Source: Pseudomonadales bacterium
GTDB lineage: Bacteria; Pseudomonadota; Gammaproteobacteria; Pseudomonadales; DC-out160
Length of the DNA: 64,000 nt
Reading direction: 5' to 3'
NCBI GenBank assembly: GCA_019090455.1
Contig: JAHRWA010000032.1
Location: 62,001 to 126,000, forward strand
Part shown: one piece after another, positions 705 through 6,678 of the stretch
How positions within the stretch are numbered: position 1 is the first letter of the stretch
Layout: every line of letters starts with the position of its first letter
Notes under the pieces: model-generated
What the model was told of the DNA's origin: nothing
Database searches by the model: none
The model's input: the letters and a program-made list of their open reading frames with translations, nothing else
Position numbers and translations under genes: made by a program

Positions 705-2345
705 CTACATATTAGGATAGTTCGGGCCGCCACCACCTTCTGGTACTACCCAGACTATATTCTGTGTGGGGTCTTTGATGTCACATGTTTTGCAATGAAT
801 ACAATTTTGGGAATTGATCTGCAATTCCATCTTCTGCTTATCGACTTCAATTATTTCATAAACGCCAGCAGGACAATACCGTTGTGCAGGCTCGTCGAAA
901 AGTTTGAGGTTATGAGTTATGGGGACATCGACATCCTTAAGCCTTAAATGACAAGGTTGATCTTCCCCGTGATGAGTATTTGAAAGGAATACCGATTCAA
1001 GCTTGCCAAAAGTAATCAAACCATCGGGCTTGGGATAGTCGATCTTTTTACTCTCAGCTGCAGGGCGTATAACTTCGTGATCAGAATATTTCTCGCGCAA
1101 GGTTAACGGTAATTTTCCGCCAAACAAATTCATATCAACAAATGCAATAGCACCGCCGACAATATCACCATACTTATGCATCGCTGGACCGAAATTTCGC
1201 TGAAATTGTAACTCATCATAAACCCAAGAGTTATTGAAAGCCGTTGTATATTCAGCGAGTTCCCTTCGCTTTTCATCTTTTCTCAGCGCCGCATCGATTG
1301 CCTCCGCCGCTAGCATCCCTGATTTCATCGCACTATGGCTGCCTTTTATTTTGGCATTTACCAAAGTTCCCGCATCACAACCTATCAATAACCCGCCGGG
1401 AAAAACCATCTTCGGCAATGATTGTAATCCTCCTTTCGCTATGGCTCTCGCGCCATAACTAATACGCTTCCCTCCCTCTAGGAAGCATCTTATTTTAGGA
1501 TGCAACTTCCATCTTTGCATTTCATCGAATGGGCTACAGAATGGATTGCTATAGGACAAATCAGTTATGTATCCTAAGGCCACTTGATTGTTTTCGAGGT
1601 GGTAACAAAAACCCCCGCCACTAGCACCCACTTCAGAAATAGGCCAACCCGCTGTGTGAATCACTAAACCTTCCCGGTGCTGTGCTGGATTTATTTCCCA
1701 AACCTCTTTAATGCCAAGCGCATAATGCTGTGGATCTTTATCTGCATCTAACTCAAACTTCTGAATTAGCTCCTTACCCAAATGCCCACGACATCCTTCA
1801 CAAAACACTGTGTAACTAGCTCGTAATTCCATTCCAGGCAGATAGGATTCTTTTTTTCCTCCTTTTTTATTTAACCCGGAATCTCCAGTTATAACACCAG
1901 CAACAACCCCCTCTTCATCATAAATAATTTCCGATGCAGCAAAACCAGGGTATATCTCTACCCCTAGAGCTTCGGCTTGCTCTGACAGCCAACGACATAC
2001 ATTACCCAAACTCACTATATAGTTGCCGTCATTTCTCAAACCTATAGGTTCTAGCATCTTTGGAAATTTAAAAGCGCTTTTCTCATTCGTGAAATAATAA
2101 ACCTCATCCTCCACTACAGGTACCTTGAGTGGTGCCCCTAACTCTTTCCAGTTGGGAAACAGCTCCTCCATTGTAGTAGGTTGCATCACCGCACCGGAGA
2201 TTATATGGGCACCCACCTCCGATCCTTTTTCCAATACACACACAGATACGTCGGGATTTAGTTGGCGAAGTTTCACCGCCGTTGCTAGTCCAGAAGGGCC
2301 CGCCCCTACAATCACTACATCGAATTCTAGAGTTTCTCTCATCAC
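705..2345 (-). CDS. etfD: Electron transfer flavoprotein-ubiquinone oxidoreductase
   Basis: This enzyme passes electrons from reduced electron transfer flavoprotein to the quinone pool, linking acyl-CoA and amine dehydrogenases to respiration at the inner membrane. The 546-residue length is normal for the family. The N-terminus has the FAD-binding GAGPSGL motif in VVIVGAGPSGLATA. The C-terminal domain has the 4Fe-4S cysteines in CIHCKTC and the usual ending GGGGPNYPNM. The etfBA genes are not adjacent. Upstream on the same strand is a MalT/AlkS-like regulator. A regulatory link to fatty-acid or alkane oxidation is possible but not shown. Confidence 0.95.
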   Translation of the reverse strand: MMRETLEFDVVIVGAGPSGLATAVKLRQLNPDVSVCVLEKGSEVGAHIISGAVMQPTTMEELFPNWKELGAPLKVPVVEDEVYYFTNEKSAFKFPKMLEPIGLRNDGNYIVSLGNVCRWLSEQAEALGVEIYPGFAASEIIYDEEGVVAGVITGDSGLNKKGGKKESYLPGMELRASYTVFCEGCRGHLGKELIQKFELDADKDPQHYALGIKEVWEINPAQHREGLVIHTAGWPISEVGASGGGFCYHLENNQVALGYITDLSYSNPFCSPFDEMQRWKLHPKIRCFLEGGKRISYGARAIAKGGLQSLPKMVFPGGLLIGCDAGTLVNAKIKGSHSAMKSGMLAAEAIDAALRKDEKRRELAEYTTAFNNSWVYDELQFQRNFGPAMHKYGDIVGGAIAFVDMNLFGGKLPLTLREKYSDHEVIRPAAESKKIDYPKPDGLITFGKLESVFLSNTHHGEDQPCHLRLKDVDVPITHNLKLFDEPAQRYCPAGVYEIIEVDKQKMELQINSQNCIHCKTCDIKDPTQNIVWVVPEGGGGPNYPNM

Positions 2346-2426
2346 AACATCATCTCCATTGAATAATTTTATAAATAATTATTTTCTAGAACAGGATTAG
2401 AGTAGGTGAATTGAATTGTGGATACC

Positions 2427-2453
2427 TCACCCCTGGAGGTGAAATAGGGGTGA
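2427..2453. repeat. Small inverted repeat between the LuxR-type gene and ETF-QO
   Basis: An 8-bp perfect inverted repeat (2427-2434 with 2446-2453) with an 11-nt loop lies in the 142-bp gap. There is no T run after it on the minus strand, so it is a poor intrinsic terminator. It could be an operator or simply chance. Confidence 0.3.
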
Positions 2454-2487: not shown

Positions 2488-4071
2488 CTAAGAGTCCTTA
2501 CAAGGGCTTTGTTGATTCATTTTCAGGAGTGCTTCGGTTCTATTTTCCACTCCCATTTTTCCATAGAGATTTCGGATATGCACTTTAAGCGTATTGACAG
2601 AAATATTAAGTTCAGATGCGATTACTTTATTAGGCATACCTTGAGATACCAATTGCTTCACCTGAGCTTCACGCCGAGTCAATGGTTCTTGATGTGGCGA
2701 TTCTTGATTCAATACTGCAGATGGAATTGATCGTGATTCTGAATTGCGGGGTTCTCTCATGTTTACTGCAATTGAGAGATCATTCTTAGTTGCCTTCATC
2801 TTCGCTTTATATAGGGTATTAATTTCGATAGAAGATAATTGTGACAAGAACCTAACAGGTATCGATTCAATCCATTCCGTTAAGCTAACTTCGCCTTCGC
2901 CCCCGCCCCCTTTTTTATCTTCAGAAACTTGGTCTAACAATGTCACAACTGCCATCCAGTTTTGTAAAACAATAAATTGTTCCAACGCCTCTTCTAGATA
3001 ACCCGCCGTCTCAAACCACTCTGCCGACTGAAGATAATATTCACCCCTACTTTTTTCGGATAAAAGTAAAAACCGGGACATTAAGAAATGCCGAAATAGA
3101 TCGTGATAACGAAACCAGGTTCGATGATTGTCAAGAGGCACCAAAAACAAATTCATTTGATCCAGCAACGCGATAAGCTTAAGGCTATCCGGCTTATCAA
3201 GTATTTTATTACATAAGCCCGCACAAAATTTTGGAACACATGAGGAGATCATCAAAAACAATTGCACTTCCTCCGTTTGTAACGCAAACACTTCTTCAAA
3301 CAAATAGTCAGATATATGGCGGTCGAGATGCTCCCTGATAATAGGTCCGGCATCCGGTTTTTTAAGGGATAAAGCAGCCAATTGTAACCCTACAATCCAA
3401 CCTTCCGTGTTTTCACATAACCTAACAACATCAACATCAGACAACGCCAGCGACATGGTTTCATTGAGGAATAGACGTCCTTCATTTTGATTAAACGTCA
3501 GATCTGAAACACTCAACTCCCGCAACTGATTGTTTGCCCGCCTCTTTGCCAGCGCTAATGCAGGCTCTGCGCGTGCAATCAAAACAAGACGAATACTCGG
3601 AGGAATATGATCTAAAAAAAGATTCATCAGATCCAAGACAAGAGGACGTTCAATACAGTGGAAATCATCTAGTACCAATGTAAGCGGCTCTCTCGAATTA
3701 TTGAGAGTAGACAAATCATCTAAGTCATTGAGTAAGGAAAATACCGCCGACTCTAATAATTCATCATCAGACTCTCGGAGAATATTGAGCGCCTCTCCGC
3801 CAACATCGGGCTGAATATTATGAATAGCAGTAACAAAATGTTCCCAGAATACAATCGAAACCCTCTGAAGCCGATCTAGGCTCAACCAAGCAAAGGTATG
3901 AGGATTCGCATGCAACCATTGACTCACCAGAGTTGTTTTCCCGTAACCAGCAGGAGCCGACACCAGGATTAATTCCCCACCAGCAGATACCTTCAGCTTC
4001 TCCACTAAAGACTCGCGCAACACGGAGCGTTTACGCAACGGAGGAATGTAAAAGCGAGTTTTTAAAAGCAT
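2488..4071 (-). CDS. Short MalT/AlkS-like STAND ATPase, LuxR-type regulator
   Basis: The protein has a Walker A motif (APAGYGKTT, about residues 39-47), a Walker B-like LTLVLDDFH segment and a STAND-type ATPase region to about residue 390. A C-terminal LuxR/FixJ helix-turn-helix follows at about residues 464-527 (TRREAQVKQLVSQGM, then NTLKVHIRNLYGKMGVENRT). Classical MalT/AlkS proteins are near 900 residues, with a long TPR-like sensor between these parts. Here that region is replaced by a linker of about 65 residues containing a glycine run. The helix-turn-helix stays in frame, so this is not a simple frameshift. The gene follows a RegA-like regulator by only 3 bp, implying co-transcription and perhaps translational coupling. 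The inducer is unknown. Confidence 0.82.
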   Translation of the reverse strand: MLLKTRFYIPPLRKRSVLRESLVEKLKVSAGGELILVSAPAGYGKTTLVSQWLHANPHTFAWLSLDRLQRVSIVFWEHFVTAIHNIQPDVGGEALNILRESDDELLESAVFSLLNDLDDLSTLNNSREPLTLVLDDFHCIERPLVLDLMNLFLDHIPPSIRLVLIARAEPALALAKRRANNQLRELSVSDLTFNQNEGRLFLNETMSLALSDVDVVRLCENTEGWIVGLQLAALSLKKPDAGPIIREHLDRHISDYLFEEVFALQTEEVQLFLMISSCVPKFCAGLCNKILDKPDSLKLIALLDQMNLFLVPLDNHRTWFRYHDLFRHFLMSRFLLLSEKSRGEYYLQSAEWFETAGYLEEALEQFIVLQNWMAVVTLLDQVSEDKKGGGGEGEVSLTEWIESIPVRFLSQLSSIEINTLYKAKMKATKNDLSIAVNMREPRNSESRSIPSAVLNQESPHQEPLTRREAQVKQLVSQGMPNKVIASELNISVNTLKVHIRNLYGKMGVENRTEALLKMNQQSPCKDS

Positions 4072-4074
4072 GAA

Positions 4075-4632
4075 TTAATGTCGCACGGGCCTCTTACTCA
4101 ATTTTCTCTGTAACGTTCGCCGATGCATTCCCAGGGCTCTTGCAGCCGCGGAAATATTGCCATCACAATCCGTTAACACCTTTTGCAAATGCTCCCACTC
4201 CAAGCGCTGTACTGAAATAGGCCGGGACGCCAATTCGACACTGCAATCGCCAGAACCTCGATTTAATGCAGCCACAATTTCATCTGCATCCGTGGGCTTA
4301 GTCAGGTAATGCACTGCGCCCAACTTAATAGACTCTACGGCTGTCGCAATACTCGCATAGCCCGTCAACATCACAATACGCGTATTTTCATCCAACGCCT
4401 TTAATTGTTGCACTAAGGCCAGCCCAGACTCCTGACCGATACGTAAATCGACAATGGCATATTCCGGCTCGCGACTAATCGCCAACGCAATTGCATCCGT
4501 TAAATTCTCTGCAATACTCACCTGGAACCCCCGCTTTTCTAGCGATCCCCCCAATACTTTACAAAAAGTCGGATCATCATCTACCAATAATAATCTTGGC
4601 TCTTCATTGTTGGTCGTCTTTTCAATGGTCAT
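4075..4632 (-). CDS. regA: RegA/PrrA/ActR-type response regulator
   Basis: This is a 185-residue two-domain regulator. The receiver domain has the acidic pocket LLLVDDDP, the phospho-acceptor aspartate in AIVDLRIG, and Thr/Lys motifs in MLTGYAS and YLTKPTD. The C-terminal Fis-type helix-turn-helix (GNISAAARALGMHRRTLQRK) is the signature of the RegA/PrrA/ActR/RoxR family. Known family members respond to redox state and control respiration, carbon and nitrogen genes. Its kinase partner lies 49 bp upstream on the same strand. The STAND-LuxR gene follows after 3 bp. Confidence 0.9.
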   Translation of the reverse strand: MTIEKTTNNEEPRLLLVDDDPTFCKVLGGSLEKRGFQVSIAENLTDAIALAISREPEYAIVDLRIGQESGLALVQQLKALDENTRIVMLTGYASIATAVESIKLGAVHYLTKPTDADEIVAALNRGSGDCSVELASRPISVQRLEWEHLQKVLTDCDGNISAAARALGMHRRTLQRKLSKRPVRH

Positions 4633-4681
4633 ATTTTCATATTGTCATGTTTAAATATTGTCGAATGCCAAGTGTTGCTTG

Positions 4682-6010
4682 TCATTGCGAGGCACCTGAA
4701 GTCAAGCTAAGGAGGGGTAAAATAATTCGCGTGCAAACGCCGCCCTCTTCGCGGTTGAAAAGAGTAATACTACCACCAAGACGCTCAACCGAAGCATGCG
4801 CTAAAAAAAGCCCTAATCCTAACCCTTGCTTCTTCGATGTAAAAAGTCTCTTACCAGCGGATTCAGAAGCTACCGCACTCAGCCCCGGACCTCTGTCAGT
4901 CACTTCAATCACTAACTCAACCGCATCCCAGCTCGCCTTCAACTCAATAAAATCAGGCGAAGCATCCGCAGCATTATCTAAAATGTTAGTGAGGGCTTGG
5001 CTTAATACATTTTCTGCCAAAATGAGCGGCGAAGGGCGCTCTCCGTGAAAGCCACATTTCAAATTAGCCGCAGTACGTCGTGTACGCCATTGCGCAATAA
5101 GTTGTTCGAGATAACGATCCACCGCAACGGGCTCTCCAGAGACTGATTGCGCCTCACCTGCAGAGGCTGAGATAATAGATAGCGCTTCCTTACATCGTTT
5201 TATCTGACTACGAATAATTTCGAGTTTCTCATGCAAGTCGCTCTCGGGTTCATTCCCGTTCTCGGCAGGGTACTCCTGCAATAAGTCACCTGTCACGATT
5301 GCCATGGTTCCTAAAGGAGTCCCAAGCTCATGTGCCGCCCCTGCGGCGAGCGTGCCCAGAGCAACCAAACGTTCATCACGCAAAGCCTGCTCCCGAGCTT
5401 GTGCCAAATTACGATCTCGATCTCGTAGAGAGTTCGCCATTCCAGCCACAAAGTAAGCCACTAATCCAGCACTAAGCATAAACCCAAACCACATACCAAA
5501 AACATGTAATTCGAATCCTCCGCCATGGGAATTTCCACCCAAATGCAGAGGCGTGTAATACACCATCAGCAATGAATAACAGACCGTGGTCAAACCCGCC
5601 ACAGCCCAAGTATACCCATTAGACAGAACCGTAGCCGCTATCATCAAAGGCAGAAGATAAAACCAAGCGAAGGGATTAGTGGCTCCACCGGCAAAATACA
5701 ACACACCCGTTAACCCGAGAACATCTATCACAATTTGGAGAAAAAACTCCCAGCTCTGAATCGGGTGAGACCAACGCACACGCCACCACGTTAACAAATT
5801 CCACATCACCAGCATCGAAAACACGAGAGACAAAGGCAAAATAGGGAGTGGAATTTCAAGCCAAATTGCGGCGACACCGATAGCCAACACTTGCCCAGCG
5901 ATACTGATAATCCGTAATACAAACAGATGGTGCAAATTCAGAGTTGTAGACGATTTGGGGTCTTTTCTTGCGGTCAAAAACATGAGACTAGGGGCAACTC
6001 CGAAAAACAT
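4682..6010 (-). CDS. regB: RegB/PrrB-type redox sensor histidine kinase
   Basis: The 442-residue protein starts with several membrane helices (about residues 30-190). It carries GGATNPF at residues 108-114, which matches the GGxxNPF motif implicated in ubiquinone sensing in RegB. The phospho-accepting His is near residue 227 in HELGTPLGTM, the sequence typical of this family. A cysteine at about residue 273 (KRCKEAL) is a candidate for the redox-active cysteine of RegB. The C-terminal HATPase domain has an N-box (NILDNAADAS) and GLGLGLF. It probably phosphorylates the adjacent RegA-like protein in response to the state of the respiratory chain. The last codons overlap a stretch resembling a GTCATTGCGAGG-type repeat. 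Confidence 0.9.
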   Translation of the reverse strand: MFFGVAPSLMFLTARKDPKSSTTLNLHHLFVLRIISIAGQVLAIGVAAIWLEIPLPILPLSLVFSMLVMWNLLTWWRVRWSHPIQSWEFFLQIVIDVLGLTGVLYFAGGATNPFAWFYLLPLMIAATVLSNGYTWAVAGLTTVCYSLLMVYYTPLHLGGNSHGGGFELHVFGMWFGFMLSAGLVAYFVAGMANSLRDRDRNLAQAREQALRDERLVALGTLAAGAAHELGTPLGTMAIVTGDLLQEYPAENGNEPESDLHEKLEIIRSQIKRCKEALSIISASAGEAQSVSGEPVAVDRYLEQLIAQWRTRRTAANLKCGFHGERPSPLILAENVLSQALTNILDNAADASPDFIELKASWDAVELVIEVTDRGPGLSAVASESAGKRLFTSKKQGLGLGLFLAHASVERLGGSITLFNREEGGVCTRIILPLLSLTSGASQ

Positions 6011-6147: not shown

Positions 6148-6678
6148 TTATGAAGGATACTTCAGCTTCACCTTCGACCAACCGCCCTTTCGCCAAGTTT
6201 TGAAAGCAGTGAAGGCCAAAACCATAAGGATTTGGGTGGCAACCCACCAAACAAGAAAGATGAAAAACAACAGCGTACTTTCAACCAAATTCACTGTCAG
6301 AGCTTCTAGAGCAGGGCTATTTTTAAACTCTGGCTCCTCCTCACCAGAAGGCTCCGATGCGGTAAGATAATTGGCGGGGGACAACAACGCACTTATATTA
6401 ACGAAATTAAAACTACCGAAAGAATTGGAACTTGCTTGATCTTCAGCAATATGAGTCTGACCCTCAATAAGAGCAGTATCGTCTTCTCCGATAATGGCCT
6501 TACCCAATTCGGTTAGCTCATCAACATCAGCCAATTCACTGACAACAGCGGATTCACTGACATCATTTGACTCACTGATGTCACCCCCAACACCAAAAAT
6601 AATCACCAAAACTGCCATCGCAATTGTGACCAACAGGCTGCCTACAAGCGGATTCACAATCAACACTCCGAATTTCAC
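6148..6678 (-). CDS. Hypothetical two-helix membrane protein with acidic repeat linker
   Basis: I do not recognise this protein. It starts with a GTG codon and has an N-terminal hydrophobic helix (residues about 8-30). An acidic Ser/Glu/Asp linker of about 90 residues follows, then a second helix (LLFFIFLVWWVATQILMVL) and a basic tail. The linker contains three imperfect 18-bp repeats (6534-6587). No convincing Shine-Dalgarno sequence precedes the start. The gene lies 137 bp before regB on the same strand. It is open for 176 codons and has plausible membrane topology, but homologues were not recalled. Confidence 0.5.
   Translation of the reverse strand: MKFGVLIVNPLVGSLLVTIAMAVLVIIFGVGGDISESNDVSESAVVSELADVDELTELGKAIIGEDDTALIEGQTHIAEDQASSNSFGSFNFVNISALLSPANYLTASEPSGEEEPEFKNSPALEALTVNLVESTLLFFIFLVWWVATQILMVLAFTAFKTWRKGGWSKVKLKYPS
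6534..6587. repeat. Three imperfect 18-bp tandem repeats inside the membrane-protein gene
   Basis: The motif ATTCACTGACA recurs at 6534 and 6552, with a degenerate copy near 6570, giving an 18-bp period. It is in frame and encodes the Ser/Glu/Val-rich linker. Confidence 0.55.

Follow-up and report, generated by a model that had tools for sequence, protein, structure and literature searches.

How does a transcriptional switch operate once it has lost the domain through which it would normally be triggered, and which gene does it then serve? This question is raised by a locus from a Pseudomonadales bacterium (lineage DC-out160; assembly GCA_019090455.1, contig JAHRWA010000032.1, positions 62,001 to 126,000), analyzed here as a stretch of 64,000 nucleotides that we call the window and number from its first letter. 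On its minus strand, the window encodes a short MalT-like regulator of the STAND class (signal transduction ATPases with numerous domains), with a RegB-RegA type redox pair upstream and a gene for an electron transfer flavoprotein-ubiquinone oxidoreductase (ETF-QO) downstream. An initial annotation had proposed that the redox pair and the regulator form a new three-part system, perhaps controlling the ETF-QO gene. Our comparison of genomes and predicted structures suggests that the short protein, conserved among mostly marine bacteria, is quite probably a sensorless STAND activator dedicated to the neighboring ETF-QO gene, and that the earlier interpretation is partly supported: it had the wrong partner on one side of the regulator and the right one on the other.

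The regulator gene (2488..4071, minus strand) encodes a protein of 527 aa with a nucleotide-binding domain (NBD), a helical domain (HD), a winged-helix domain (WHD), an arm, a disordered linker and a LuxR-type helix-turn-helix (HTH), and no sensor. Residues 1-382 correspond to positions 1-380 of the 903 in the NCBIfam MalT model NF003420, whose score of 298.2 bits is under the curated cut-off of 537 and still the best NCBIfam match. The C-terminus is matched by LuxR-type models and by Pfam GerE (64.4 bits, cut-off 23.5, residues 463-515), placing the HTH at residues ~461-521 (2509..2691, minus strand). Because the MalT match ends at position 380 and a C-terminal HTH is present, about 375 residues, the sensor, are missing. 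An AlphaFold model (28 sequences, mean pLDDT 82, pTM 0.75) predicts a disordered linker at the sensor's expected place (residues 430-460, 2692..2784, minus strand; pLDDT <50), with the HTH next and no TPR/SUPR sensor. The initial annotation had likewise described a protein that keeps its ATPase and HTH and carries a short linker in place of a lost TPR-like sensor.

The closest PDB match to this model was Escherichia coli MalT (8bob_C; TM 0.86 by target length over 410 columns), with APAF-1 next. After the WHD, six helices at residues ~339-437 (2761..3057, minus strand) can be read as three hairpins when the AlphaFold secondary structure is compared with the arm as described in passages of PMC6468293, and we therefore assign them to an arm domain. 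The residues of the switch were kept: P40, A41 and G42, the Walker A residues G44, K45, T46 and T47, D135 and D136, R19 and H323 were invariant in 28 sequences (10 short, 18 long). As R19 and H323 are invariant, the ADP/ATP switch is probably still in use.

The short form is shared with related bacteria. Thirteen of 390 genomes drawn from the order matched at 1e-85 or better, spread over three families by their assigned labels, and twelve of them had already turned up in a set of 293, where 65 genomes matched at 1e-40 and short forms outranked every long form. Named hosts of the short gene were Ketobacter, Oleispira, Thalassolituus, Pseudomaricurvus and metagenome-assembled genomes (MAGs). The comparisons below use 15 loci, a set that excludes L042 of genome G694, which runs off its contig; the short proteins measure 491-527 aa in the 14 whose start is known. 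Full-length relatives in the order, whose frames measure ~870-1010 aa, share 26-41% identity with the window protein. In a draw of 369 class genomes, nine matched at 1e-55, the window's included, and no short form was found besides the window's own; the other eight have open frames of at least 838 aa in all but two (L220 and L221). These two were rejected as short forms outside the order, as their lists of open reading frames (ORFs), read by eye, show one broken and one frameshifted long form.

In a tree of the shared N-terminal part, the 15 short proteins formed one clade (support 100/99) apart from the 19 other rows. This tree used 34 of 126 MalT-type ORFs, many of which are the same gene in several loci, with some long forms unused, and its topology suggests that the sensor domain was lost once. 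The short form is old and conserved, and neither of the two findings that the initial annotation had named as refuting it, a protein unique to this genome or a recent internal deletion, holds. In the closest pair compared (G292 and G273), dN was 0.052 and dS 0.69, indicating purifying selection on the short gene; within it, the linker has evolved fast (27 codons, protein identity 0.52) and the HTH slowly (0.97). No stop codon or frameshift was found in any of the 15 short genes within the frame read, the Thalassolituus start being masked. Domain loss could in principle mean that a full-length MalT-type regulator is here in decay, and a truncated ORF does exist in the long clade (L086, 6001-7560, Marinobacter similis; 519 aa), where it is perhaps a frameshift and not a short form. 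For a single clade that spans several families at similar lengths, conserves its HTH and switch residues and keeps dN far below dS, decay is hardly credible.

We then considered the gene that this clade would serve. The ETF-QO gene of the window, the presumed target, lies at 705..2345 (minus strand; start GTG at 2345 or ATG at 2342) and matches Pfam Fer4_ETF_QO (163 bits) and ETFQO_UQ-bd (130 bits); PF05187 and PF21162 were above cut-off in this copy and in three other linked copies scanned, and FAD-type families match too. ETF-QO enzymes feed the ubiquinone pool. An ETF-QO gene stands directly downstream of the short gene, on the same strand, in 13 of the 15 loci. In Oleispira the two are separated by a single ORF on the opposite strand, and in genome G213 the ETF-QO gene is 5.5 kb downstream. 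Around five long paralogues (L129-L133), no ETF-QO was found within the 11-13 kb fetched. Separately, the linked ETF-QO of the Oleispira NORP219 MAG (L043, 8506-10260) appears as two ORFs with a TGA inside the match, either a broken gene or an assembly error.

Genomes with the short gene also carry an additional ETF-QO. Two were found in 14 of 15 such genomes, the exception (G292) being 84% complete. In a sample of 115 genomes, all five with the short gene have two ETF-QOs, as do two of the 110 others, 16 of which have none at 1e-100. EtfA gave a single match in 13 of the 15 short-gene genomes (none in G292, two in Pseudomaricurvus), which rules out duplication of the whole ETF set. Since the other ETF-QO of the window genome adjoins two ETF subunit genes, the linked copy there looks like the extra one. 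Against this idea, the linked ETF-QO of Pseudomaricurvus may be the main copy; the non-linked one sits with EtfA, an EtfB-like ORF (identified by eye) and a DAO/GcvT protein. In Thalassolituus alkanivorans (L047, 4158-9192), the short malT, its start region masked with N, is flanked by a pair of sister ETF-QO genes, and EtfA is found ~1 kb further upstream; this arrangement marks a local duplication with the regulator in its middle.

The linked ETF-QOs are not themselves one clade. In a tree of 57 of 75 ETF-QO ORFs (the Oleispira copy represented by the longer of its two pieces only), a single origin of all 16 linked rows was rejected by the approximately unbiased (AU) test (p = 0.0009); the "linked" label needs four changes on the free tree, and Thalassolituus and Pseudomaricurvus have linked copies that cluster with other ETF-QOs. 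A joint grouping of the window-type and Ketobacter-type copies was not rejected (p = 0.54), the constrained tree being slightly better than the free one. As the linked ETF-QOs are not one clade, the pairing was made or re-made more than once. Through recruitment or gene replacement, a single regulator clade has thus come to stand beside ETF-QOs that do not share one origin; the four label changes are not taken as a count of such events.

The upstream regions of the linked ETF-QO genes share a site. A 16-bp inverted repeat with the consensus TCACCCCTAGGGGTGA was found with at most three mismatches in 15 of 15 ETF-QO promoters associated with the short malT. In the window, this putative operator reads TCACCTCCAGGGGTGA (2427..2442, minus strand; two mismatches). 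It is followed by a putative -10 hexamer, TACTCT (2399..2404, minus strand), exactly 22 nt downstream, and an additional half-site, TCACCCCT (2446..2453, minus strand), lies upstream as a direct repeat, 11 bp away from where the operator starts. Similar upstream half-sites, 11-14 bp away, occur in many loci but not all. In all 15 promoters the distance from the repeat to a TANNNT motif is exactly 22 nt, whereas each of the 39 other distances in the range 0-39 gave the motif in none or one of 15. This fixed 22-nt spacing is the strongest single fact of the analysis. The regulator's domain make-up, its clade-wide association with ETF-QO, the conserved repeat and the spacing can all be read directly from the sequences, and control of the adjacent ETF-QO gene, as the initial annotation had conjectured, is strongly indicated by the adjacency in 13 of 15 loci together with repeat and hexamer in 15 of 15.

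Upstream regions of ETF-QOs that are not beside a short gene gave no site with three or fewer mismatches in 42 control rows (41 distinct genes, L164 being the same as L189; 11 from short-gene genomes), the best having five, although each was searched over a longer stretch; one of 4500 shuffles reached three or fewer. In a held-out test, the consensus of five loci found the other ten at 0-4 mismatches, and a second choice of five did so at 1-4, with controls at five or more. Scanning whole genomes at two or fewer mismatches recovered a site at ETF-QO in 12 of the 15 short-gene genomes. The ten other sites in these genomes are no more than the 13 obtained with the reversed pattern, so that no wider regulon was seen at this threshold, and of eight control genomes without the short gene two hold a site, neither at ETF-QO. 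The window operator is the only match in the window at three or fewer mismatches and the only one in its genome at two or fewer.

Several points weigh against reading the repeat as the operator of the short protein. The loci that yielded the consensus are those in which it was then counted, and because they are related, 15 of 15 overstates the number of independent events. For the held-out test, the full consensus had served to place the training sites; in that test, the worst true sites (four mismatches) and the best control (five) are one mismatch apart. A single match in the window is unremarkable on its own, as 10 of 100 window shuffles also hold one at three or fewer mismatches, and the reversed pattern too has one place in the window genome. 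Three sites (G049, G125 and Pseudomaricurvus) carry three mismatches and were missed by the two-mismatch genome scan. One Oleispira genome has a second repeat with one mismatch (L223, ~2843-2858), followed after ~60 bp by a 955-aa ORF whose start is signal-like; read by eye, no TANNNT stands 22 nt downstream of this repeat. Finally, the site is not the textbook MalT box, GGA[TG]GA.

Two further occurrences were noted in their own right. A repeat with one mismatch lies just upstream of a 969-aa ORF in G037, where no short gene was found (L224, ~2906-2921), by chance or as a site for another regulator. In Pseudomaricurvus (G293), two identical sites with two mismatches, TCACCCCTATGAGTGA, lie on different contigs (C11:552876 and C31:17689) and perhaps belong to a repeated element.

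It is in this light that one may ask whether some other factor binds the repeat, the short MalT being a mere passenger beside ETF-QO. Binding by the short protein is our inference, and the departure from the textbook box would suit another binder. MalT operators reportedly hold two boxes in direct repeat. Yet the half-site GGGGTGA is near the MalT core, as GGGTGA differs by one base from GGATGA (core box as quoted in a passage of PMC9628970), and it occurs here in a palindrome with, in many loci, an upstream direct half-site. Moreover, the repeat is absent from the control rows, including those from short-gene genomes, it accompanies linked ETF-QOs of different origin, and in G213 it still stands at the ETF-QO gene 5.5 kb away. 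We therefore give the passenger explanation little credence and favor the short protein as the binder of the repeat.

The position of the repeat bears on the direction of control. Taking TANNNT as the -10 box, the repeat spans ~-50 to -35; a -35 consensus was not seen at the 15 promoters, and a consensus scan for terminators or promoters found nothing at the operator. Class II activators sit where the repeat lies, just upstream of -35, and a promoter that has no -35 consensus and a site at fixed distance from its -10 box has the layout of activator-dependent promoters. Because the repeat adjoins the promoter, the short protein could also be a repressor of ETF-QO, and a repressor is on record among the large ATP-binding LuxR-type (LAL) regulators, namely SCO6993 (described in passages of PMC9628970). 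Repression is nevertheless improbable, as the end of the repeat lies upstream of -35, its spacing to the -10 box does not vary, and MalT itself is an activator.

The upstream side of the regulator gives a different picture. The RegA-type response regulator (4075..4632, minus strand; 185 aa) ends three bases before the malT ATG (gap 4072-4074, as the initial annotation had noted), and is preceded by the RegB-type histidine kinase (4682..6010, minus strand; 442 aa). Each is best matched by its own redox family, RegA by ActR/PrrA/RegA (NF033791; 194.5 bits, cut-off 250) and RegB by ActS/PrrB/RegB (NF033792; 248 bits, cut-off 350), at scores below the curated cut-offs. In RegB, Pfam HATPase_c is above cut-off and HisKA below it (23.7 bits against 26.9). 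GGATNPF at residues 108-114 fits GGXXNPF, named as a ubiquinone motif in a passage of PMC8191878. A cysteine follows the H-box (IKRCKEAL), a possible counterpart of the redox-active Cys265 in the redox box of a characterized RegB. Upstream of regB, a 176-aa ORF (6148-6678) is without a Pfam match.

These features invite the three-part scheme, in which RegBA would sense the redox or quinone state and control, or work through, the short MalT, which would control ETF-QO in turn. The four genes lie on the same strand with 3 bp between regA and malT, RegB gives a single match in the window genome at E 1e-30, and a kinase with a ubiquinone motif would plausibly be coupled to an enzyme that feeds the ubiquinone pool. 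However, when the same gene order was searched in relatives, regBA was upstream of the short gene in the window alone among the 15 loci, which rules it out as a conserved partner, and relatives retain the short malT together with ETF-QO and its repeat at loci that lack regBA. A search at E 1e-30 detected RegB homologues in 9 of 12 short-gene genomes, the window's included; in the other eight they sit elsewhere, on a different contig or, in G065, ~840 kb away. (The three remaining named genomes were viewed near the short gene only.) We thus regard the three-part system as rather unlikely. The three-gene order is a local arrangement, possibly meaningful in the window species, and not a conserved system in the genomes examined. 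As the genes nearly touch, expression of the short gene is probably tied to regBA in the window.

What lies upstream varies among the loci viewed: some of these genes have no Pfam match, and others encode an M48 peptidase, a LytTR regulator, a hybrid kinase, a serine hydroxymethyltransferase (SHMT) or a first ETF-QO. In a congener of the window species, an opposite-strand ORF with a sub-threshold PBP-like match lies ~295 bp upstream of the short malT. Two other loci have a two-component gene there: in G049 a LytTR response regulator, which like the 343-aa ORF before it is co-oriented with the short malT (L125, 4252-6047), and in G150 a divergent hybrid kinase; these differ in kind and are probably due to chance.

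How might a switch without a sensor work? In MalT, closure of the nucleotide-binding oligomerization domain (NOD) is maintained by the arm with assistance from the sensor, and inducer is bound by sensor and arm, according to PMC4381067 and PMC6468293; multimerization is ATP-dependent and DNA binding cooperative (PMC4381067). The resting protein is sequestered by MalY, and its first 20 residues and a WHD histidine stabilize the resting form (passages of PMC10427625). The MalT chain in 8bob comprises 412 residues, about the part kept in the short protein. We propose that the NBD, HD, WHD and arm retain the STAND ADP/ATP switch and that the ATP state, judging from the retained NOD, would lead to multimerization and cooperative DNA binding, with the LuxR-type HTH domains placed on TCACCCCTAGGGGTGA and often on the extra upstream half-site. 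The repeat-bound protein, its site ending at ~-35, would then recruit RNA polymerase to a promoter whose TANNNT resembles a -10 box and in which no -35 box is recognizable. We infer that the short protein binds the repeat, that it activates and does not repress, and that it switches with nucleotide. Because the sensor is missing, control would most likely be exerted by a protein docking on the NOD or arm, or by the regulator's own expression level; the nucleotide level is another possible setting for such a switch.

A more specific version of this proposal would have the NOD or arm itself receive the signal from a docked partner such as ETF, ETF-QO or another redox protein. The MalT-type switch would then read directly the flow of electrons from fatty-acid or alkane oxidation into the quinone pool and would set the level of its own ETF-QO, with RegBA added as a second, quinone-sensing input in the window species. 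We consider this possible but unlikely as it stands. Oleispira and Thalassolituus are known alkane degraders, and the names of other hosts point to alkane degradation too, a way of life that would fit having a second ETF-QO to handle heavy beta-oxidation. A term search of the Thalassolituus and Oleispira alkane proteome papers (PMC6304351 and PMC7318663) returned passages with no statement on ETF-QO or MalT.

STAND switches are thought to be triggered via their sensor domain; here the sensor has apparently been lost and the remainder kept, with one clear candidate target. The short regulator and its candidate operator offer a small system in which to test directly what a NOD and arm are capable of by themselves, and they provide a proposed regulator and binding site for an ETF-QO gene. 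In titles and abstract openings, a scope that mostly leaves subscription journals aside, we found no sensorless MalT-type regulator of ETF-QO, nor a regulator and binding site proposed for an ETF-QO gene.

Among known systems, the window's redox pair is of the RegB-RegA (PrrBA, ActSR) type, but its link with the short regulator is not conserved. SCO6993 of Streptomyces coelicolor (606 aa) is likewise a shorter LAL protein with a P-loop and a LuxR HTH; it is of a different lineage and is reported to repress antibiotic regulators (PMC9628970). The full-length MalT-like and LAL regulators of the order share the same N-terminal module and are the nearest rows outside the short clade, but they keep the sensor. 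Relative to E. coli MalT, the short protein (527 aa against a 903-position model; 298 of 537 bits) has no TPR/SUPR sensor and hence no maltotriose-type inducer site, and its candidate operator is palindromic, with or without a further half-site, with no wider regulon detected at two or fewer mismatches. MalT is nonetheless its best fold and best NCBIfam match, the two having in common the NOD with Walker A and B motifs, the WHD histidine, the N-loop arginine, the arm and the C-terminal LuxR HTH, and the half-site of the short protein is close to the MalT box.

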